Assembly: GCF_002868735.1 (NCBI RefSeq)
Contig: NZ_CP025613.1
Location: 496,001-560,000 of the forward strand
Direction of reading: 5' to 3'
DNA from: Niveispirillum cyanobacteriorum
Lineage (GTDB): Bacteria > Pseudomonadota > Alphaproteobacteria > Azospirillales > Azospirillaceae
DNA length: 64,000 nt
A program made the position numbers and the translations under genes. The notes beneath the pieces are model-generated. The model saw only the letters and a program-made list of their open reading frames with translations, ran no database searches and was not told the DNA's origin. Shown here piece after piece: positions 18,459 to 28,186 of the stretch; the first letter of the stretch is position 1, and each line of letters starts with the position of its first letter.

Positions 18459-19406
18459 TCACACTCCGCAGAGGCCCTCGCACTCGTTGGGCCAGAGATC
18501 GAGCTGGCCGCGATCGGCATTGGTCGACAGGTCGACCTGGTCGAGCGGCACCGCGGAACGGTGGAGATAGACATCACCACGAATCCCCCGGAACCCGGTG
18601 CGAATGGAAGCGTCGACCGATACCGCGTCGGCCCAAGCCTCGGGATCGCGGTCGCGCATCCGCCGCCAGTGATCGTCGGAATGGAACGGGCAACCGATGC
18701 AGGCGCTCTTGGGTGGCAGGGGGTAGTCGTGCCGATCCAGCCAGCGCAGGCAATCCTGGCGGGTCATGCCTTGCTCGATGAGCGGCCAGCGGTTGATCTG
18801 CCACGGCTCGAACGAAGGCTTCATGCGTAGTACCTCGTCGAGCGAGATCCCTATCCACTGTTCGGCGATGGGAGCCGTTGGCGAGCGCCGGCCGGCGATG
18901 CCGAGCAGCTCGCGGACCTTTCGGCGGATTGGCGCGATCTTGTAGTCGCCGGTGCATTGGCGGCGGATCATGCCGACCCCGACCCGTTCGGTCGGCACGA
19001 TGCGGGAGCCGACGGCGACGAGATCACCGTTCTCGTCCTCGTCATAGACGGGCAGCTCCGCGCCTGCCGGCGTCACTGTGCGGGTGAAGGCCGGGATGGA
19101 GGCCCACCGCGCGCCGCGCGCGCCGGCGAGAAGGTCGGCGCGCAGGTCCCCGGCCGAGACGATATGGACGGGGAAGGGCAGGACGTTGGGCGATCGCAGC
19201 CAGGCGAGATGCTCATAGACGGCCCTCGGCTCCCAGCCGGTATCGGCGAAGATCGCGCAATCCGGCATGGGGCCGATCTCGCCATGCGCGGCCATCAGGG
19301 CGAGCGTGGTGGACTGGACGCCGGCGCCCAGGCTGAGAACACGCAGGCGGATGGACGCCTGCTGTTCGGGGGATGGCGCCAGTGCGGGGAAGACGGGGGC
19401 GTTCAT
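18459..19406 (-). CDS. Phosphoadenosine phosphosulfate reductase-like PP-loop protein
   Basis: A 315-residue adenine-nucleotide alpha-hydrolase-fold protein. The PP-loop SLGAGVQSTT is at 25-34. Later Cys-containing blocks RRQCTGDYKIAPIRRKVRELLG and KSACIGCPFHSDD could bind an iron-sulfur cluster or zinc, as in PAPS reductase/DndC-like enzymes. Length is longer than CysH. It is common in alphaproteobacterial ICEs; sulfur metabolism or DNA modification are both possible and the substrate is not known. The ATG at 19406 overlaps the ardC stop. Confidence 0.82.
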   Translation of the reverse strand: MNAPVFPALAPSPEQQASIRLRVLSLGAGVQSTTLALMAAHGEIGPMPDCAIFADTGWEPRAVYEHLAWLRSPNVLPFPVHIVSAGDLRADLLAGARGARWASIPAFTRTVTPAGAELPVYDEDENGDLVAVGSRIVPTERVGVGMIRRQCTGDYKIAPIRRKVRELLGIAGRRSPTAPIAEQWIGISLDEVLRMKPSFEPWQINRWPLIEQGMTRQDCLRWLDRHDYPLPPKSACIGCPFHSDDHWRRMRDRDPEAWADAVSVDASIRTGFRGIRGDVYLHRSAVPLDQVDLSTNADRGQLDLWPNECEGLCGV

Positions 19407-20356
19407 CACGCCGCCTCCCGTTCGTCGTCGGTCATGCCGACATCCGCGCCCGGCAGGAAGCCAAGCAGCCAGTCGGCCGCCTTGCTGGCCTGGGATGCGG
19501 CGCGCACGATGGCGCGATTGTCCTCGCGCAGCACCTCGAGCCAGGAGCCGATGTAGTCGGCATGGCGGACGGTGGGCGTGATGCCGAGCGAGGCGCAGCA
19601 GAAAGCGGCGTTGATCTCGGCGACCAGCTCCTCGAAGGCGTATTTCTTCGAGCCGAAGCCGCCGGTGAGGTCACGGCCGAGCCGGGAGGTATGGCCGGTC
19701 GCGTGCCCCAGCTCGTGCAGGGCCGTGCGGTGCCAGTTGATCGGCTCGAAATACGCATGGGGCGGCGGCACCTGCACAAAGTCGTGCGCCGGGACATAGA
19801 AGGCGCGGTCGCCGCCGATACGGAAGTCGATGCCGGTCGCCCGGATCAGAGTCTCGACCCGCGGCTCGATGAGGCCGGGCGGAGGTGGTGGGGCCACAAT
19901 GGCGACATCCTCCGGCAGCCCCTCGCATTGCGCCGCGTTGAACACCGTGAAGCGCTTGAGGAACGGGATCGCGGCGGCTTCTTCGCCGGTCTCGCGGGCG
20001 CGGCGCTTCTCGTCCTCCGGCGTGAAACGGTCGGCATAGACGACGGTGGTGCCGTGTTCGCCGCGGCGGACATTGCCGCCAAGCGACAGGGCCTGGCGGA
20101 AGGTGAGCCAGCTCTGGCCGGGAAAGCCGTGCTGGATCACCGCGCCCCAGAGGATCAGCACATTGATCCCCGAATAGTGCCGCCTGGTCGCGGCGTTTCT
20201 CGGCATGGCGAGGGGCGCCTTGACCGAGGCCGATCCCCAGGGCTGGACCCAGGGGAAGCGGCCTGCCTCCAGCTCGGCGATGATCTTGCTGGTGATGTCG
20301 TCGTAAAGGTTCGCCCGGCCGGAGCCGGCACGCCCGTTGCGGTCGTTCCTGAACAT
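19406..20356 (-). CDS. ardC: ArdC-type antirestriction protein, zincin metallopeptidase domain
   Basis: A 316-residue ArdC-family protein that would protect incoming single-stranded ICE DNA from host restriction. The N-terminal ssDNA-binding domain (about 15-140) has the family pattern RFPWVQPW, GINVLILW and WLTFRQA. The C-terminal zincin domain carries HELGH (214-218) with the downstream glutamate region FEELVAEINAAF. It is the first gene of a minus-strand pair with the PAPS-reductase-like gene, and its leader contains the shared element. It is divergent from the defence operon. Confidence 0.92.
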   Translation of the reverse strand: MFRNDRNGRAGSGRANLYDDITSKIIAELEAGRFPWVQPWGSASVKAPLAMPRNAATRRHYSGINVLILWGAVIQHGFPGQSWLTFRQALSLGGNVRRGEHGTTVVYADRFTPEDEKRRARETGEEAAAIPFLKRFTVFNAAQCEGLPEDVAIVAPPPPPGLIEPRVETLIRATGIDFRIGGDRAFYVPAHDFVQVPPPHAYFEPINWHRTALHELGHATGHTSRLGRDLTGGFGSKKYAFEELVAEINAAFCCASLGITPTVRHADYIGSWLEVLREDNRAIVRAASQASKAADWLLGFLPGADVGMTDDEREAA

Positions 20357-20530: not shown

Positions 20531-20567
20531 TTGAAAACTGTCAGAAATTCGCATATATTTCCGACAG
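20531..20567 (+). promoter_or_regulatory. Promoter and operator of the defence operon
   Basis: TTGAAA (20531-20536) and TATATT (20554-20559) are separated by 17 bases, a near-ideal sigma-70 promoter. An inverted repeat, CTGTCAGAAAT (20538-20548) with ATTTCCGACAG (20557-20567), one mismatch, overlaps the -10. This is the arrangement of an AbiEi-type autoregulatory operator. The ribosome site AGGAGAA follows directly. Confidence 0.7.
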
Positions 20568-20577
20568 GAGAAAGACG

Positions 20578-21171
20578 ATGACACGGCTGACCGAACAGAT
20601 TCTGGCACATGCGACGGGACTGCCCGAAGGCGCCCCCGTGTCCGCCAAGAGCCTGCTCCACCTCGGAAACCGGGCGGCTGTGGATCAGGCATTGTCGCGT
20701 CTGTCCGAGCGCGGGCAGCTCATCCGCGCCGGTCGTGGCGTCTATCTGCGTCCCATCGCCAGCCGGTTCGGCACGCGCGCACCTTCGGTCGAGCAGGCTG
20801 TCGAGGCCCTTGCGACCCAAAAGGGGGAGATCATCGTCTCGAACGGCGCCGCCGCGGCGAACGCCCTTGGCTTGACGACGCAGGTGCCCGTCCGCTCGGT
20901 CTATCTGACCTCCGGGCGCAGCCGGAAAATGCACCTCGGCAAGCAGGTCGTGGAATTGCGGCACGCGCCGCGCTGGCAACTGGCCTTGGCCAACCGCCCG
21001 GCGGGGGAGGCCGTGCGGGCGCTGGCCTGGCTCGGCCCCGAAAGGGCGGAGGCCGCGCTCACGACATTGAAGCGGAAGATGCCGCCCGGCGTGTTCGGCG
21101 AACTGGTCGCCGCCGCGCCGCAGCTTCCGACGTGGCTCGCGCAGAGCGTGGGAAGGGTGGCGTATGGCTGA
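20578..21171 (+). CDS. abiEi: AbiEi-type antitoxin (DUF6088-like)
   Basis: A 197-residue type IV antitoxin. The N-terminal winged helix (about 1-60: GAPVSAKSLLHLGNRAAVDQALSRL, then GQLIRAGRGVYLRP) is typical of AbiEi proteins, which bind operator DNA and counteract the AbiEii nucleotidyltransferase without direct neutralising contact. The C-terminal domain (about 70-197) matches the antitoxin domain (SNGAAAANALGLTTQVPVRSVYLT). The stop overlaps the AbiEii start by 8 bases. It lies beside a strong promoter with an inverted repeat, so autorepression is likely. Confidence 0.85.
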   Translation: MTRLTEQILAHATGLPEGAPVSAKSLLHLGNRAAVDQALSRLSERGQLIRAGRGVYLRPIASRFGTRAPSVEQAVEALATQKGEIIVSNGAAAANALGLTTQVPVRSVYLTSGRSRKMHLGKQVVELRHAPRWQLALANRPAGEAVRALAWLGPERAEAALTTLKRKMPPGVFGELVAAAPQLPTWLAQSVGRVAYG

Positions 21172-22180
21172 CATCTTCCTCCAGCTTTCGGCCGAGGATC
21201 GGCGCGATGCGTTGGGCGTCGCCGCCGACCGCTCGGGCCGTCCTACCCATCTTCTCGAAAAGGATGTGTGGGTGGTGTGGGCGCTGGCGACCCTCTACGC
21301 CGCGCCGCTCGGTGAACATCTGGTGTTCAAGGGCGGCACGTCGCTGTCGAAAGCCTATCAGGTCATCCGCCGGTTTTCGGAGGATGTGGATCTGACCTAC
21401 GACATTCGGGCGATTGCGCCCGATCTGGTCGGGGACAATGGCGAGGGCCTGCCGAAAACCCGGAGCGAGGAAAAGCGCTGGTCCAGCGAGGTCCGCCGGC
21501 GGTTGCCGGTCTGGGTCGCGGAGGCCGTGCAGCCCGTGATCGCGACCGCGCTGGCCGCCGAAGGTCTGGCGGCGGTTATTCGTGTCGAGGATGACAAGCT
21601 CTTTATCGACTATGAGGCGACCGCGGCAGGGTCCGGCTATGTCGCGCCCAGCGTCATGCTGGAGTTCGGCGCCCGCTCGACGGGCGAACCGGCGAGCCTG
21701 CGCGACGTCGTCTGCGATGCGGCCGGTCTGATCGACGGGCTGGTATTCCCGACGGCGCGGCCGCGCGTCATGCACGCGGAGCGGACCTTTTGGGAGAAGG
21801 CGACCGCCATCCATGTCTTCTGCCTCCAGGAACGGCTGCGCGGCGACCGCTTCGCACGACACTGGCACGATGTTGTCCGGTTGGATGAAGCCGGCTTCGC
21901 GGAAGCTGCTTTCGCTGATCGCGAACTGGCCAACGCTGTCGCCCGCCACAAGTCGATGTTCTTCGCGGAGAAGGCCGCCGACCGCACGCCGATCCACTAC
22001 GCAGCGGCCGTCAACGGCGGCTTGCAGCTCGTGCCGGCCGGCGATGGCGCGAAGGCGCTGAAGGACGACTATGCCCGCATGGTCGAGGATGGGCTGCTCT
22101 TCGATGACGCGGAGCCGTTCGAGGCCCTCATGGCGCGGTGCGCCGATATAGCCGCGCGCGCGAACAGCGCGGCCAAATAA
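21164..22180 (+). CDS. abiEii: AbiEii-type nucleotidyltransferase toxin
   Basis: A 338-residue nucleotidyltransferase of the AbiEii/MenA class, toxins that block translation by modifying tRNA 3' ends. The signature KGGTS is at 56-60 and the metal-binding SEDVDL at 72-77 (Asp75, Asp77). The C-terminal helical part contains ERTFWEKATAIHVF. Translationally coupled to the antitoxin and 23 bases before the SIR2 start, with no terminator between. AbiE is an established abortive-infection module. Confidence 0.88.
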   Translation: MADIFLQLSAEDRRDALGVAADRSGRPTHLLEKDVWVVWALATLYAAPLGEHLVFKGGTSLSKAYQVIRRFSEDVDLTYDIRAIAPDLVGDNGEGLPKTRSEEKRWSSEVRRRLPVWVAEAVQPVIATALAAEGLAAVIRVEDDKLFIDYEATAAGSGYVAPSVMLEFGARSTGEPASLRDVVCDAAGLIDGLVFPTARPRVMHAERTFWEKATAIHVFCLQERLRGDRFARHWHDVVRLDEAGFAEAAFADRELANAVARHKSMFFAEKAADRTPIHYAAAVNGGLQLVPAGDGAKALKDDYARMVEDGLLFDDAEPFEALMARCADIAARANSAAK

Positions 22181-22203
22181 GAAACTGGGGGGATCGGGGG
22201 TAT

Positions 22204-23526
22204 ATGAGCGAAGTCGGAGACGAACGAAAATTCCAGTTTCTGAGGAACGGCGATGCCGATCCATCGGAACTCGACTGGAACAAGGGGATCGAGAGCGCCC
22301 GCCAGGCGATTTCCGAGGCCATGAACGCCAAGAATATCGCGTTTCTGCTCGGCGCTGGATGTTCCTCCCTGATGAGGGGCGAAAAGGAACTCGGCATTGC
22401 GACCATGGCGCCCCTGGCCAAGGAGTTCTGCGGGGAAACCCTCGAGGCGCGGGCTGCGGGATTCTACGGTGATCCGCCGGTCGTCGGCGCTGCCCCGGCG
22501 CCGTGGCGGCTGACCAAGGGCGAACTCGACTATCTCGATGCGCTCGGGGTCGACCTGGCGAAGGACTACAGCCGCAACCTAGAACGCTTGATGGAGGTGC
22601 TATTCGCGCAGCGGTTCGTGCTGCGCCAGAGCGAGAATCCCGATCTTCATCCCTACCGCGCTGTTCTCGACGGCATCATCAAGAAGGTCCAGGACTTCCT
22701 ATGGACCCGTGTCACCCAAGGGGCCTTCGCCACGGAGGGCGACACCACCGTGCGCGACCTCTACGAGCGGTTCTACAAGAAACTGGTCCTGCGAGATCGG
22801 TCCTTGCCCCGGCCGTGGGTGTTCACGACCAACTACGACCATTTCAGCGAATTGGCGATGGATCGGCTGGGCATTCCCTATGCCAACGGCTTTTCCGGCG
22901 TCGTGGAACGTCGCTTTAACCCGGCGATCTTCCGCTATGCCCTGGCCGAGCAGCTCGACGTTGCCAGCCGCAAGTGGACCGCCGTCGACGCCTTCGTCTA
23001 TCTCTGCAAATTGCATGGTTCGGTCACTTGGACCGAGGACGATCATGGCCTGTTCCCGATCAAGGAGGTCTGGCCGCCCGAATCCACGAACCAGATGCTG
23101 ATCTATCCGACGCCGGCGAAGCAGAACTCTTCGCTCGGCTCGCCCTACGCTGACCTGTTCCGGGAATTTCAGGCCCGGATCGTGCGCGAGCAGAGCGTTC
23201 TCATCACGGCGGGCTACGCCTTCGGTGATGAGCACCTGAACAACATCATCTACCAGGCGCTGACGATCCCGACGTTCCGTCTGGTGATCTTCGCGGCGCC
23301 GGATACGGGCGGCGAGATCGCCAAGCTGCGGGCGCTGCGCGACCCGCGCATTTGGATCATTGGAGGCGACGGTCCTGCCGAGGGGACGAGGGCGCACTAC
23401 TTCGACATGATCGTCGAGCATTTCATGCCGCAGCGTCCCAGCGACAGGATCGATGACGCTGTTCGCAAGGTGTTGTCCGAACTGGCGCCGAAAAGGGACG
23501 ACGAGACGAAGGATGGCGAGGCATGA
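22204..23526 (+). CDS. SIR2 family NAD-binding defence protein
   Basis: A 440-residue SIR2-like protein. The NAD-binding motif is FLLGAGCSS (48-55), followed by FTTNYDHF (about 207-214), LHGSVTW (270-276) and the C-terminal ITAGYAFGDEHLNNII. SIR2 proteins paired with HerA deplete NAD on phage infection; that pairing is an established defence class. The ATG at 22204 with a GGGGGGATCGGGGG leader is preferred over a start at 22138 that overlaps abiEii. The stop overlaps the HerA start by 4 bases. Confidence 0.9.
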   Translation: MSEVGDERKFQFLRNGDADPSELDWNKGIESARQAISEAMNAKNIAFLLGAGCSSLMRGEKELGIATMAPLAKEFCGETLEARAAGFYGDPPVVGAAPAPWRLTKGELDYLDALGVDLAKDYSRNLERLMEVLFAQRFVLRQSENPDLHPYRAVLDGIIKKVQDFLWTRVTQGAFATEGDTTVRDLYERFYKKLVLRDRSLPRPWVFTTNYDHFSELAMDRLGIPYANGFSGVVERRFNPAIFRYALAEQLDVASRKWTAVDAFVYLCKLHGSVTWTEDDHGLFPIKEVWPPESTNQMLIYPTPAKQNSSLGSPYADLFREFQARIVREQSVLITAGYAFGDEHLNNIIYQALTIPTFRLVIFAAPDTGGEIAKLRALRDPRIWIIGGDGPAEGTRAHYFDMIVEHFMPQRPSDRIDDAVRKVLSELAPKRDDETKDGEA

Positions 23527-25568
23527 GCCACGACGATCGCAAGCGCGCGATCGGCAAGGTGGTCTCGGTCGCGGCCGACCGCTTTGTCGTGGAGATGCAC
23601 GTCGGCACCGACAACTTCACGGTCGTTGGCTTCGACGGCGTGCATTATGTGGCGCGGCTGGGATCGTTCCTGATGATTCCGTCGCAGTCGGAATATGTCG
23701 TGGTCGAGGTTGTCGGCCTGCGTGAGCGCGATGCGAGCACCCCCTCCGAGCGAGGCGACTTCGATCGGGCCGGCTCCTCAAAATATCTGGACGTGGTGCC
23801 GGTCGGCATGTTGCCGATGCGTGGCGGCGCGTTCCGTTTCGGTGTCTCCGTTTTCCCGTCTTTGTATGCGGACGCACTCTATGCACTGGATGGGGAACTC
23901 GATCGCATCTTCGAGACCGAGGCGGCCGTCGAGCCGTCAGTCGGCCCGGATGGCGGCGCCTGCGAACCCGAAGGGGCCACGCGCTATCGGGTTCTGCCCA
24001 TCGGCAAGTCGGTGGTGTTCGAGAACTACGACATCAAGGTCCGGCTGAACGAGTTCTTCGGCGGTCATGTCGCCGTTCTGGGCAATACCGGCAGCGGTAA
24101 ATCCTGCACGGTTGCCTCGGTCTTGCAGTCCCTTTTCAGCAAGCCGGAGGAGCATCACGCCCGCGGCGCGACCTTCGTCGTCTTCGACGTCAATGGCGAG
24201 TATCACGCCGCTCTGGCCGCTTCCGCGAAGGAGGGAGCCATCGGGGTCGAGCGCGTCGTCCTCGACGGCACGGCGGCGGGCTTCCGTATGCCGCATTGGT
24301 TCCTGGAGATGGCAGAATGGGAACTGCTCTTGCAGGCCAGCGAACGAACACAACTGCCGGTCCTTCGGACGGCGTTAGGTCTGACAAGTCTCTTTCATGC
24401 CAATACGCCAGAAGCTCTGGCGCTGCGCGAGCACTTTGTCGCCACCTGCATCATTGAGTGCTTTCGAGGGGCAGATGGCGACTCCCCCGTATCGAAATTT
24501 CAGCGCGTGGTCTCCCTTCTCCAGAAGTATCCGACAAACGACCTGAATATGGCGCTTCTGAACCGCTTTAATCCTAATTTTCAGTATGGAAATTTTTCAG
24601 GGAACAACCAATCGGCGTTTCTGGACGAAGTGAGAAAAAAGCTCCGGGAGGATGCACCCTTACCAGCCTATAATCGGACGCCATTCTCTTTTGATGAGCT
24701 GCACGAGTGTCTCGACTTCGCGATCCTCTATGAGGAGGCTCACGGCAATCGCCAAATCCGGGACTACTGCTCGTCCATGGTCACGCGGCTCAGATCCCTC
24801 CAAGAGAGAACAGAATATGCCTTTCTGCGTCACGAAGGAGCTGACGTTGACGCGGCTGTAAGCGATCTGGAGTTTTTGACCAAAATCGTCGGTCTGGAAA
24901 GGGCGGCCGGAGAATCTTTCACCAAACGCAATCAGGTCATTATTATTGATCTCAATTCCGTCGAAGATGAAATCGTTGAGCTGGTCAGTGCGGTCATCGC
25001 ACGCATGCTTTTTCGGTTTCTTCGCCATGCGGAACCGAGAAACCGCTTCCCGATACACCTACTGCTCGAAGAGGCTCATAGATATGTCGCCTCTACGCCT
25101 TCCCGCTTTTCCATCGACGCCACCAAGATTTTCGAGCGCATCGCCAAGGAGGGACGCAAATACGGCATGTTCGTGCTTCTGGCGTCTCAGCGCCCGAGCG
25201 AGCTGTCCAAGACGGTCCTCAGCCAGTGCTCCAACTTCCTGGTTCACCGCATCCAGAATCCTGACGATCTCTCCCAGATTCGCCAGATGACGCCGTTCAT
25301 TTCAGAATCGGTCCTGAAGCGGTTGCCGTCTTTGCCTCGGCAGCACGCGCTGGTGTTCGGAACCTCGGTCAATCTCCCAACGACATTCAAGGTGCGGGAG
25401 GCATCGCCGCGGCCGCACAGCGACGATACCGCCGTCGTCGATTTGTGGTTCCACGAGGAAGGTCGAGCCGCTGACATTCACCTCGCGCGCCGTCCGGCCG
25501 CCGCCGCCGCGGCGGCTAAAGGGGAGCCGATGGCAGCAAACGCAGCGCCGGACGATGACATCTTCTGA
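23523..25568 (+). CDS. herA: HerA-type hexameric ATPase (DUF87)
   Basis: A 681-residue HerA/FtsK-fold ATPase, predicted hexameric DNA translocase and partner of the SIR2 protein. It begins with a HAS-barrel-like beta domain (about 8-110). Walker A GNTGSGKS is at 187-194, Walker B with the acidic pair LLLEEAH at about 512-518, then the arginine-finger region KYGMFVLLASQRPSELSKTVLSQCSN. The stretch about 24370-25120, between Walker A and B, has much lower GC than its flanks, suggesting recombination within the gene. Overlaps the SIR2 and exonuclease genes. Confidence 0.9.
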   Translation: MSHDDRKRAIGKVVSVAADRFVVEMHVGTDNFTVVGFDGVHYVARLGSFLMIPSQSEYVVVEVVGLRERDASTPSERGDFDRAGSSKYLDVVPVGMLPMRGGAFRFGVSVFPSLYADALYALDGELDRIFETEAAVEPSVGPDGGACEPEGATRYRVLPIGKSVVFENYDIKVRLNEFFGGHVAVLGNTGSGKSCTVASVLQSLFSKPEEHHARGATFVVFDVNGEYHAALAASAKEGAIGVERVVLDGTAAGFRMPHWFLEMAEWELLLQASERTQLPVLRTALGLTSLFHANTPEALALREHFVATCIIECFRGADGDSPVSKFQRVVSLLQKYPTNDLNMALLNRFNPNFQYGNFSGNNQSAFLDEVRKKLREDAPLPAYNRTPFSFDELHECLDFAILYEEAHGNRQIRDYCSSMVTRLRSLQERTEYAFLRHEGADVDAAVSDLEFLTKIVGLERAAGESFTKRNQVIIIDLNSVEDEIVELVSAVIARMLFRFLRHAEPRNRFPIHLLLEEAHRYVASTPSRFSIDATKIFERIAKEGRKYGMFVLLASQRPSELSKTVLSQCSNFLVHRIQNPDDLSQIRQMTPFISESVLKRLPSLPRQHALVFGTSVNLPTTFKVREASPRPHSDDTAVVDLWFHEEGRAADIHLARRPAAAAAAAKGEPMAANAAPDDDIF

Positions 25569-26448
25569 CCATCTGGAGACCCTGGCGCAGACACTGGAGG
25601 CCACGGGAGATTACCGGGTCATCCGGCGTCTCAAGCCGCGCCCTCGCACCGTTCCGCCTCCAGGCACTCCGCTGCGCCTTGGACTGGTGGTCGATGTGGA
25701 GACCACGGGGCTCGATCCTCAGCGCGACGAGATCATCGAACTCGCCATGACGCCATTCTATTACGGCTTGGATGGCGCCGTTTTCAGCGTGGGCGACAGC
25801 TTCCAAGGGTTGCGTCAGCCGAGCGAGCCAATCGCCCCGGAAATCACCGCGATCACCGGCATCACGAATGAAATGGTGGCCAGCCAGGTCATCGATCCCG
25901 CCGAGGTCGCCAGATTCGCGGCACCGGCCTCGCTCGTTATTGCACACAACGCGGCGTTCGATCGCCGCTTCCTCGAACGCTTCAGCGATGTGTTCTCGAC
26001 GAAGCCGTGGGCATGTTCGCTCAGCCAGATCGATTGGGCAGCGGAGGGATTCGAGGGCACGAAACTCGCCTATCTCGCTCAGGCCGCGGGCTTCTTCTAC
26101 GACCGTCACCGCGCGATGCACGACTGTCTTGCTACGGTCGAGTTGCTGGCAATGCGGCTGCCCCGATCTGGCGTTACGGGTCTCAGCCGCCTCCTGGACG
26201 GCGCTCGTGCCGTTTCGTGGCGCATCTGGGCGGAGAACTCGCCCTTCGACCTCAAGGATGTTCTCAAAGCGCGGGGATACCGTTGGAACGGCGACCCCGG
26301 GCCGCAGCCGCGCGCATGGTATATTGACGTTCCCGAGGTTCAGCGCGAGGCCGAGCTGCGGTTCTTGAGAACGGAAATCTATCGGTATGAGGTCGATCCC
26401 CCGGTCCGACGGATCGATGCGTATGATCGGTTTTCAGACCGAATCTGA
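25555..26448 (+). CDS. DEDDh 3'-5' exonuclease
   Basis: A 297-residue DnaQ-superfamily exonuclease. Catalytic residues visible are D47 and E49 (VVDVETTGLD), D136 (HNAAFDRRF) and H185/D190 (HRAMHD), a complete DEDDh set. The C-terminal domain (about 215-297: AENSPFDLKDVLKARGYRWNGD, then EAELRFLRTEIYRYEVDP) is a separate fold seen in stand-alone proteobacterial 3'-5' exonucleases. It starts 14 bases inside herA, so it is translationally linked and is the last gene of the operon. Its role with SIR2-HerA is not established. Confidence 0.88.
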   Translation: MTSSDHLETLAQTLEATGDYRVIRRLKPRPRTVPPPGTPLRLGLVVDVETTGLDPQRDEIIELAMTPFYYGLDGAVFSVGDSFQGLRQPSEPIAPEITAITGITNEMVASQVIDPAEVARFAAPASLVIAHNAAFDRRFLERFSDVFSTKPWACSLSQIDWAAEGFEGTKLAYLAQAAGFFYDRHRAMHDCLATVELLAMRLPRSGVTGLSRLLDGARAVSWRIWAENSPFDLKDVLKARGYRWNGDPGPQPRAWYIDVPEVQREAELRFLRTEIYRYEVDPPVRRIDAYDRFSDRI

Positions 26449-26944: not shown

Positions 26945-28186
26945 TCATGCCGCCGCTTTCAGGCGCTTCTTGGCGAGCATGGCGCGGACGAACTTGTCCC
27001 ATTTCGCCATGCCGGCGCGCTTTTCCACCATGTAGTGCCAGCGGTCATAGTGCTTGGAGCTGACGTCCTGCAAAGCATGGTTCTGGAGGCGGTCGCGGAT
27101 TTCCTTCGAGATCCCCGCCTTGCCGGCCAGCGTCTTGAAGGTCCGGCGCAGGTCGCGGTTCGTCACATAGGGAATCACGCCGCGGTCCCGCTGGCGCCAC
27201 ATGAACGAGTAAAGCGTGCCGTGGCTGACAGGCTTGGACGGGTCCGTGGCCGACGGGAAGAACCAGCCGTATTCGTTGACGTTGATGGATGCGAGCAGCT
27301 CCGCGGCCAGCTCCGGCACCGGAACGGCATGGGGCTGGTCGTTCTTGGTCTTCGACCAGTCGATGATCTTTTCCTTGGCATCCCACTGATCGATGTGAAG
27401 GCTGGCAATCTCCTGGACGCGCTGGCCGGTCAGCATGATGATCCTAACGGCACGGGTATAGGGCGGATGAACCGGCGTGTCGGGGCATTCCAGCCAGCGA
27501 TAGAGTTGCACGAACTCGTCCTCGTCGAGCCAGCGGGTGCCTTTGACCTTCGGTTCGGTCGGAATACCTGTCGCCGGATTGAAGGGGATGCGAAAGCGGC
27601 GAGCCGATTGCTGCCGATAGTCGTTGTCGGACTTCATACCCCAGCCAAAGGCCGCGTGCATGTAGGAGCGCACATGGTCGGCCATCGACTTGGCGCCGCG
27701 CTCATAGATCGGGCGGATCAGTTCGACGATTTCCTCGGCCTCGATGTCGCGGGCCAGGCGGTTGCGCCCAAGGGTGTTGGCGATCTTGTTGAGGCCCTTC
27801 TCGGTCTCCTTCCAGGAGGGCTTGCCAGCAGCTTTGAGTGAAGCGACGTAGCCCTCGAAGAGGTCAGCGACAGTGCCGGGGCGGGTGTCGCTTGCGATCT
27901 TGATGCTCCGGCCTTTCTGGATCACGTCGGCATAGTCGCGCTTGAAAACCTCGCGGGCCTGGGCGAGCGACATTGAGGGGTAGGCGCCGATCTTCTTCTT
28001 GGTGCGTTTGCCGTCACGCCATTGCTGCGCCATCCAGTCGGCCGTGACGCGCTTCGGCATGGGCTTGAGAACGAGGACGAGTCGGCCGGTGCCGCGCCCC
28101 TCGCCATCGGCAAGGTTCTCTTGCTTGCGGCTGATCTCGACGCGCTTCAGCGCATGTCGGATCGCGGTGTCGGTCAGGGCTGGCAT
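26945..28186 (-). CDS. int: Tyrosine-type integrase
   Basis: A 413-residue phage/ICE integrase. An Arm-type N-terminal DUF4102-like domain (about 1-95) is followed by a SAM-like core-binding domain and the catalytic domain from about 215. Catalytic residues are R256 (TGQRVQEI), K281 (SKTKND), R347 (RDLRRTF), H370 (QNHALQDV) and Tyr380 (KHYDRWHY). The box usually written HxxR reads RxxR (Arg344), an odd but family-compatible replacement. The gene is divergent from nothing and ends the ICE, with the probable attachment site about 190 bases upstream in radC. Confidence 0.93.
   Translation of the reverse strand: MPALTDTAIRHALKRVEISRKQENLADGEGRGTGRLVLVLKPMPKRVTADWMAQQWRDGKRTKKKIGAYPSMSLAQAREVFKRDYADVIQKGRSIKIASDTRPGTVADLFEGYVASLKAAGKPSWKETEKGLNKIANTLGRNRLARDIEAEEIVELIRPIYERGAKSMADHVRSYMHAAFGWGMKSDNDYRQQSARRFRIPFNPATGIPTEPKVKGTRWLDEDEFVQLYRWLECPDTPVHPPYTRAVRIIMLTGQRVQEIASLHIDQWDAKEKIIDWSKTKNDQPHAVPVPELAAELLASINVNEYGWFFPSATDPSKPVSHGTLYSFMWRQRDRGVIPYVTNRDLRRTFKTLAGKAGISKEIRDRLQNHALQDVSSKHYDRWHYMVEKRAGMAKWDKFVRAMLAKKRLKAAA

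Follow-up and report, generated by a model that had tools for sequence, protein, structure and literature searches.

Whether five adjacent genes on a mobile element form one anti-phage system or only lie side by side is the question raised by a locus in Niveispirillum cyanobacteriorum. It is situated in a 64,000-nucleotide stretch of contig NZ_CP025613.1 (hereafter the window, meaning the whole stretch analysed), where genes for an AbiEi-type antitoxin, an AbiEii toxin, a SIR2-like protein, a HerA ATPase and a DEDDh exonuclease (Exo) follow one another. An earlier note on this DNA had proposed that these co-directional genes, joined by overlaps or gaps of 8, 23, 4 and 14 bases, are a composite rather than chance neighbours. 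The five open reading frames (ORFs) are real, all lie on the plus strand, and their coordinates and junctions were confirmed: AbiEi and AbiEii overlap by 8 bases, 23 bases separate AbiEii from SIR2, SIR2 overlaps HerA by 4 bases and HerA overlaps Exo by 14 bases. The 7 terminator-like sites found, against an expected mean of 5.1, are at chance level and all fall within ORFs. Our reading is of an anti-phage operon of modular build that is carried by a mobile element and consists of a SIR2-HerA core, a head controlled by AbiEi and an exonuclease tail; we regard the case for it as evenly balanced.

The five-gene order recurs elsewhere. The HerA loci, 77 in number, came from a scan of genome contigs with HerA (best 80 of 109 relatives), and their five-gene content was judged by tblastn with the window proteins. 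The order AbiEi-AbiEii-SIR2-HerA-Exo was found in 19 of the 77 (L003, L004, L008-L012, L014, L016, L017, L019, L023, L025-L028, L034, L035, L040; Exo of L026 is cut by the contig end), and L013, L024 and L039, also cut by contig ends, were not classed. This recurrence upholds the proposal of a composite, although the five genes are not always found together. The titles of the five-gene loci name Rhodobacteraceae, sphingomonads, families of Rhizobiales, Parvibaculum and Acetobacteraceae, and the same five genes are present on a Haematobacter plasmid (L080). Because element backbone is common to one or both flanks in most five-gene loci (little in L008 and L028), the bulk of the 19 is, as far as flanking sequence tells, one spreading mobile cassette and not 19 independent assemblies. 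An Algoriphagus-titled contig (Bacteroidota, L013) carries the alphaproteobacterial cassette at 94-96% identity; it was probably mis-binned.

Parts of the cassette can be lost. SIR2-HerA-Exo without AbiE was seen in L005, L007 and L018, with a 3' remnant of AbiEii in front of SIR2 in the latter two, and a remnant of the Exo start is retained in L006 and L031, which have neither AbiE nor Exo. HerA is 92-98% identical in the close relatives that lack AbiE or both parts. Immediately upstream, L005, L006, L015 and L031 have a gene that encodes 1012-1014 residues; that of L005 is a type III restriction enzyme, preceded by a type III methyltransferase. The earlier note had named as one refutation that Exo and AbiE would be rare beside SIR2-HerA elsewhere. 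Both do recur there, the full five-gene order largely as one mobile cassette, and both are dispensable.

The exonuclease tail was examined in its own right. Exo scores as a member of the NF006615 (PRK09182) family and has the D-E-D-D-h residues (D47, E49, D136, H185, D190), which are invariant in 18 of 18 aligned sequences; its AlphaFold2 model (mean pLDDT 85) matches the structures of the DinG exonuclease, PolC, DnaQ, ExoX and ExoI. The catalytic residues given earlier were correct for Exo (D47/E49) and HerA (K193) but not for AbiEii, whose DxD motif is D74/D76 instead of D75/D77. An Exo gene adjoins SIR2-HerA in 30 of 39 loci (L003-L036, L039, L040, L055, L057, L059) and in 0 of the 38 remaining HerA loci, as searched by tblastn (E 1e-4) with the window protein on flanks that are often short. 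Of 38 genomes that carry this HerA (39 less that of L013), 32 have an NF006615 match when adjacent copies are counted; in the class and order samples, with the own genome counted in each, such matches occur in 8 of 190 and 5 of 82 genomes. Two other samples, for the orders of G162 and G434, comprised 3 and 4 genomes only.

In the exonuclease tree (45 rows, 12 near-identical sequences of 57 omitted), Exo linked to SIR2-HerA is found at separate places, namely the window clade, L032, L029, L022 and L057 (the last three upstream of the core) and L055/L059. Since several deep forks are weak, and the unresolved fork of L032 does not set it firmly apart from the window clade, the pairing is read from this tree as having about four to six origins. 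A quick HerA tree of 40 rows, in which 19 of the 36 inner branches are open, requires no fewer than 8 changes to account for where Exo is present, and 5 for AbiE. Where Exo lies downstream, its start overlaps the HerA stop by 14 bases in the window and by 4 or 7 bases in L032, and follows it after a 1-base gap in L055 and L059; these junction types represent two or three exonuclease lineages. A further locus, L057, retains Exo and SIR2 while a frameshift breaks HerA (L057:10001-12006).

The same exonuclease family also adjoins another defence core. In four plasmid loci (L082, L083, L085, L088) Exo lies 30-42 bases before genes annotated as an AAA ATPase and a helicase, which in L082 and L088 are the Gabija proteins GajA (PDLC00072) and GajB (PDLC00127) according to PADLOC and in L083 and L085 are 64-74% identical to those of L082. 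These four exonucleases group in a single clade (SH-aLRT support 99%). Two plasmid GajA relatives from outside Alphaproteobacteria (L125, L126) have no annotated exonuclease ahead of GajA, and the class sample gave 0 of 190 matches to PDLC00072, a zero without weight because the controls were silent too. Exo holds its place as a partner of SIR2-HerA in the sense of repeated pairing, but it is neither obligatory, given the loss cases, nor specific, as it also precedes Gabija and mostly has other neighbours. That every SIR2-HerA has Exo as a subunit is ruled out by the loss cases. The C-terminus of HerA is an acidic DDDIF tail (encoded at 25526-25568) that resembles the C-terminal tip of single-stranded DNA-binding protein (SSB). 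As a docking signal for Exo this tip is not supported, because the motif is encoded where HerA overlaps the Exo start and is missing at the differing junctions of L018, L032 and L055 and where Exo is upstream (L022, L029).

The AbiE head is a pair with a wider distribution. AbiEi is above the Pfam cut-offs of PF19570 (DUF6088) and PF13338 (AbiEi_4), below that of PF17194 (AbiEi_3_N; 22.3 vs 26), and misses the NCBIfam equivalog NF047376 (TAA_AbiEi) by 30 vs 150 bits; AbiEii has GGTSLSK from residue 57. By Pfam and PADLOC the two make an AbiEi-AbiEii pair as in type IV toxin-antitoxin systems. AbiEii is followed by HamA and HamB of Hachiman in L131, by GajA (129 bases on by annotation) and a piece of GajB in L129, and by another type of GajA and GajB in L153. 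In L135 it precedes a PDC-S32 protein (PADLOC; its Pfam AbiJ_NTD4 score is below the cut-off) and an AbiJ_NTD3 protein, in L144 a PD-(D/E)XK protein and a UvrD-PD-(D/E)XK helicase, in L160 a UvrD helicase (91% identical to that of L167), in L128 a DUF4238 protein and in L161 a 458-residue protein without family match. The genome of L027 has AbiE a second time, at L165, where it is followed by SIR2 and HerA that are 65% identical to those of the window and then, in place of Exo, by a protein related (53%) to the L144 nuclease and truncated where the contig stops (L165:1896-6437); this PD-(D/E)XK protein of L144 and L165 is presumably AddB-like. Since the nearest HerA relatives of L165 (L093, L122) gave no AbiE match, the simplest reading of these sequences would be that AbiE joined SIR2-HerA at least twice. 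One Rhizobium leguminosarum plasmid (L167, NZ_CP090094.1, 614800-627000) carries both accessory parts, AbiE with a UvrD helicase and, about 1.7 kb on, Exo-GajA-GajB.

To put numbers on this, close AbiE loci were defined as plasmid or chromosome loci, other than the window-type cassette, whose AbiEii reaches at least 54% identity, and a tight downstream gene as one that is co-directional, of at least 100 amino acids and within 130 bases. Twelve plasmid loci were chosen from AbiEii listings before their surroundings were known, 8 of them named in advance; L167 and L165 were taken from sequences that had been collected earlier for Exo-Gabija and SIR2-HerA; and L137 (on the plasmid of L130), L139 (the L028 cassette) and L166 (contig end) were dropped. 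A tight downstream gene was present in 10 of 18 close loci (L128, L129, L131, L135, L144, L153, L160, L161, L165, L167), or in 8 of 16 without L165 and L167. The ten genes comprise defence matches (L129, L131, L135, L153, L165), helicase or nuclease domains (L144, L160, L167), DUF4238 (L128) and one without a match (L161). Among distant AbiEii (at most 40% identity; L140, with an interrupted toxin gene, and L156, at a contig end, dropped) the count was 1 of 17 (L138), a difference with p 0.003 by Fisher's test that is subject to biases of choice and annotation, as the L161 gene was taken from annotation after ORF calling had missed it and the distant loci had no annotation. These results indicate that AbiE is, by gene neighbourhood, a free-standing pair that often but not always heads a defence operon. 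The claim that AbiE is part of the unit stands so far as it repeatedly heads defence genes, and falls so far as it is dispensable (only a remnant is left in L007 and L018), not specific and often partnerless; specificity for SIR2-HerA was accordingly rejected.

A single strong promoter with an operator had been proposed ahead of AbiEi. A sigma-70 scan gave a match of 10/12 at 20531-20559, and inverted-repeat arms at 20539-20547 and 20558-20566, with one mismatch, cover the spacer and the −10 box. It is the sole promoter-like match ahead of the starts of the first four genes. The operator follows the pattern TGTCAGAAA - 9 or 10 bases - TTTCYRACA, across a −35/−10-like pair about 10-25 bases upstream of the AbiEi start, and by eye it is kept with small deviations in 18 of 18 printed cassettes and in 17 of 17 other printed AbiE loci (L153 has no AbiEi sequence; L166 and the distant AbiEii loci were outside the printed set). 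The palindrome is thus conserved, but the promoter scan by itself is not above chance, as given below. Inverted repeats over the promoter are also a feature of AbiE type IV toxin-antitoxin systems; an excerpt of PMC3985639 reports that AbiEi of S. agalactiae binds inverted repeats in its own promoter and represses it, a tested autorepressor. By analogy, the AbiEi of the window may bind and repress its own promoter likewise. Taken together, the gene neighbourhoods support the view that Exo repeatedly partners SIR2-HerA and that AbiE repeatedly heads defence genes with its own conserved operator.

The core itself is of a known kind. The SIR2-like and HerA genes match PDLC04090 and PDLC04102 over nearly full models, and motifs corresponding (as judged by motif only) to the SIR2 active-site Asn and His and the HerA Walker motifs are present: GAGC at 50, TTNYD (N210) and KLHGS (H271) in SIR2, and Walker A K193 and LLLEEAH from 513 in HerA. 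The best PDB matches of both (8yhx/8yho, 8j4u) are entries with SIR2-like and HerA-like chains. Because the scores are far under the cut-offs of the NCBIfam equivalogs NF042942 and NF042943 (137.6 vs 500 and 220.6 vs 800 bits), the SIR2-HerA of the window is, by score, a divergent subfamily. An excerpt of PMC11559045 describes SIR2-HerA of V. cholerae as a tested NAD+-depleting defence, in which N168A or H227A abolishes immunity.

HerA has in addition an exchanged segment. Residues 285-400 fall into two classes, alleles A and B, about 30% identical to each other, and the G+C content of the segment (residues 285-410) is 0.515 vs 0.59 for the whole gene. When 26 relatives were binned, class A comprised the window-like rows with L020-L022 and L029, and class B comprised L023-L028, L030, L032, L033, L035 and L055; the segment of L165 is closer to class B (66% to L023). 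Seven class-B rows (L023-L028, L035) are 91-100% identical to the HerA of the window in all bins of residues 1-240 and 520-648, 89% at 240-285, 24-36% at 285-400 and 62-76% at 400-520, so that the divergence fades toward the 3' side. This pattern of identity indicates that HerA alleles are swapped between near-identical cassettes. The segment sits between Walker A and Walker B and, by likeness to HerA-DUF4297 as partly described in PMC12198126, probably belongs to a helix bundle; it may have a role in recognition or phage escape. No dependence of Exo on the HerA allele was seen, as both alleles occur with and without Exo.

A mechanism can be sketched for the modular operon. By likeness to homologues, SIR2 would deplete NAD+ inside a complex scaffolded by HerA upon a phage cue, and Exo would digest 3' ends of DNA engaged, opened or moved by HerA, feeding or reinforcing the response. 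AbiEi would repress the single promoter through the palindrome, thereby keeping AbiEii and the three downstream genes low, and its loss or dilution would release AbiEii and SIR2-HerA-Exo together, as might happen after transfer of the element to another cell or during a phage-imposed shut-off of host expression. In addition, cells that lose the operon would pay a cost through AbiEii.

A number of points weigh against this reading. Co-directional neighbours are common in bacteria anyway, and defence genes cluster in islands, which makes chance adjacency likelier. SIR2-HerA is found without AbiE or Exo in L006, L015 and L031 and, in the window's own family, in L124 (SIR2 97%, HerA 98%), and identity across these four is 94-98%. 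The promoter scan alone gave 2 sites vs a mean of 1.1 (sd 1.0), which is the chance level. No tight gene follows AbiE in 8 of 18 close loci (L130, L149, L157, L158, L159, L162, L163, L164) or in 10 of 13 viral contigs, 3 of which have one (p 0.14 against the close loci). None of 13 Exo sites from the class and order samples (two from one genus, three from one genome) adjoins SIR2-HerA or Gabija by tblastn. The neighbours of Exo are mostly other genes: in 20 other contexts 138 neighbours were called, 68 were scanned by PADLOC and 44 families matched, and the matches listed (25 of the 44) were, with the exception of a TnsB, all to GajA or GajB, with a single member each. That GajA/GajB pair is taken as belonging to L089, whose annotated ATPase and helicase genes are divergent from Exo. 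Alternatively, then, autonomous AbiE, SIR2-HerA and Exo may have piled up in the slot between the ArdC-like gene and the integrase, hitchhiking on one successful element, with the operon shape a by-product of insertion behind a promoter. Such stacking would suit the backbone common to most five-gene loci on one or both sides, the existence of each part without the others, the abundance of AbiEii (405 of 72,556 plasmid records at E 1e-5), which is often partnerless, and the many unrelated contexts of Exo. It is rather unlikely, given that Exo has repeatedly become the neighbour of SIR2-HerA, before or behind it, with 1-14-base junctions in two or three lineages, that in L165 an AbiE pair precedes another SIR2-HerA of 65% identity, and that some cassettes have little common backbone (L008, L028).

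Two narrower alternatives concern single parts. AbiE may be merely an addiction module that retains the element or operon and has no role in timing, the downstream genes being read through, which is compatible with the core and tail of the modular reading. This is possible but doubtful: partnerless AbiE on plasmids and viral contigs and the loss of AbiE from L007 and L018, which retain SIR2-HerA-Exo, speak for it, as does the autoregulation of AbiE as a type IV toxin-antitoxin pair (PMC3985639, in part), but repression at the palindrome would reach the downstream genes, because the sole promoter-like match is there, unless an internal promoter went unrecognised. As for the tail, Exo might serve the mobile element in replication, repair or protection of DNA during transfer, its place at the operon end being for expression only. 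Plasmid homologues beside repair and replication genes (DinB in L081, a replication initiator in L090) and phage homologues (found at E 1e-5 in 102 of 50,697 records, the ten matches listed having no more than 41% identity) are consistent with this, and yet the fact that Exo repeatedly stands directly next to SIR2-HerA and, in one clade, next to Gabija makes it improbable. Phages of Rhizobium and Agrobacterium, about 200-490 kb in size (H306-H313, H315), have exonucleases of 34-37% identity that carry the annotation of a polymerase epsilon subunit.

The locus was also compared with known systems. It resembles SIR2-HerA / Nezha (GAO_19) in the adjacent SIR2 and HerA genes, their intact motifs and their PDB matches, but its core diverges by score and is joined by an AbiE head and by a DEDDh exonuclease whose gene overlaps that of HerA. 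With AbiE type IV systems, as partly seen in PMC3985639, it shares the overlapping AbiEi-AbiEii genes, the AbiEii motifs and the inverted repeats over the promoter, whereas its AbiEi is of the DUF6088 type, under the NF047376 cut-off, and a defence operon follows after 23 bases. The Gabija loci (L082, L083, L085, L088) have the same exonuclease family directly adjoining the core; there, in contrast, Exo precedes it, and that core is an OLD-type nuclease with a UvrD helicase. HerA-DUF4297 (PMC12198126, in part) and HerA-NurA likewise couple a HerA motor to a nuclease, but in this locus HerA has SIR2 as its partner, and the nuclease, an exonuclease, is of the DnaQ fold. WYL regulators of the BrxR type (an excerpt of PMC9122601) are also DNA-binding regulators recurrently placed with diverse defence systems, whereas in this locus an antitoxin is the regulator, and its toxin is encoded in the same run of genes. 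No description of the SIR2-HerA-Exo form or of AbiE-headed operons was found in the open-access library searched, subscription papers and bioRxiv preprints being outside the search. Each component is of a known kind, and the two arrangements are new as far as that library goes.

Table 1. Positions of the operon, its control region and its flanking genes in the window.
Feature	Position	Strand	Evidence
Promoter with overlapping palindromic operator	20531..20566	+	−35 TTGAAA 20531-20536, −10 TATATT 20554-20559, 17-base spacer
AbiEi-type antitoxin/repressor (DUF6088)	20578..21171	+	Pfam PF19570 88.1 bits (cut-off 25); PADLOC PDLC02226 222 bits
AbiEii nucleotidyltransferase toxin	21164..22180	+	Pfam PF08843 132 bits (cut-off 22.5); PADLOC PDLC02289 334 bits
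SIR2-like NADase candidate	22204..23526	+	PADLOC PDLC04090 790 bits; Pfam SIR2_2 above cut-off
HerA ATPase	23523..25568	+	PADLOC PDLC04102 991 bits; Pfam DUF87 above cut-off
Dimorphic HerA segment, residues 285-400, allele A in the window	24375..24722	+	Identity binning; G+C
DEDDh (DnaQ-fold) 3'-5' exonuclease (Exo), PRK09182 family	25555..26448	+	NCBIfam NF006615 432 bits (cut-off 207); Pfam RNase_T above cut-off
ArdC-like gene, element backbone, flank outside the operon	19406..20356	−	Flank common to other cassette loci
Tyrosine integrase of the mobile element, flank outside the operon	26945..28186	−	Flank common to other cassette loci

The start of SIR2 was set at ATG 22204, the mechanical ORF opening upstream at GTG 22138. 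Downstream of the operon, a 145-residue ORF without Pfam match precedes the tyrosine integrase, and both are on the minus strand, as is the upstream ArdC-like gene. An attachment site from tRNA-Leu was sought within the window; the longest repeat, of 12 bases, is unconvincing and does not define the ends of the element. Other defence genes stand near some relatives: a TIR effector (PDLC00733) two genes ahead of Exo-SIR2-HerA in L029 (L029:5625-6791), and DrmB of DISARM upstream in L018.

For the family at large, we tentatively suggest that this AbiE subfamily may serve alphaproteobacterial defence operons in general (SIR2-HerA, Gabija, Hachiman, AbiJ-like and nuclease-helicase) as an exchangeable head for regulation and addiction, one palindromic AbiEi operator placing very different effectors under a common toxin-antitoxin control, that PRK09182 exonucleases may be an interchangeable addition to SIR2-HerA and Gabija, and that the module of HerA residues 285-400 may set recognition by the core. 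How dangerous NAD-depleting effectors stay silent and are then switched on in time is a largely open question, and a conserved antitoxin operator before several unrelated defence cores would be one answer to it. The recurrent exonuclease partner would add a step of DNA processing to SIR2-HerA. The trigger of Sir2-HerA is given as unclear in a review table (PMC12198126, in part), and the two HerA alleles in near-identical cassettes would be a natural swap experiment for that trigger.

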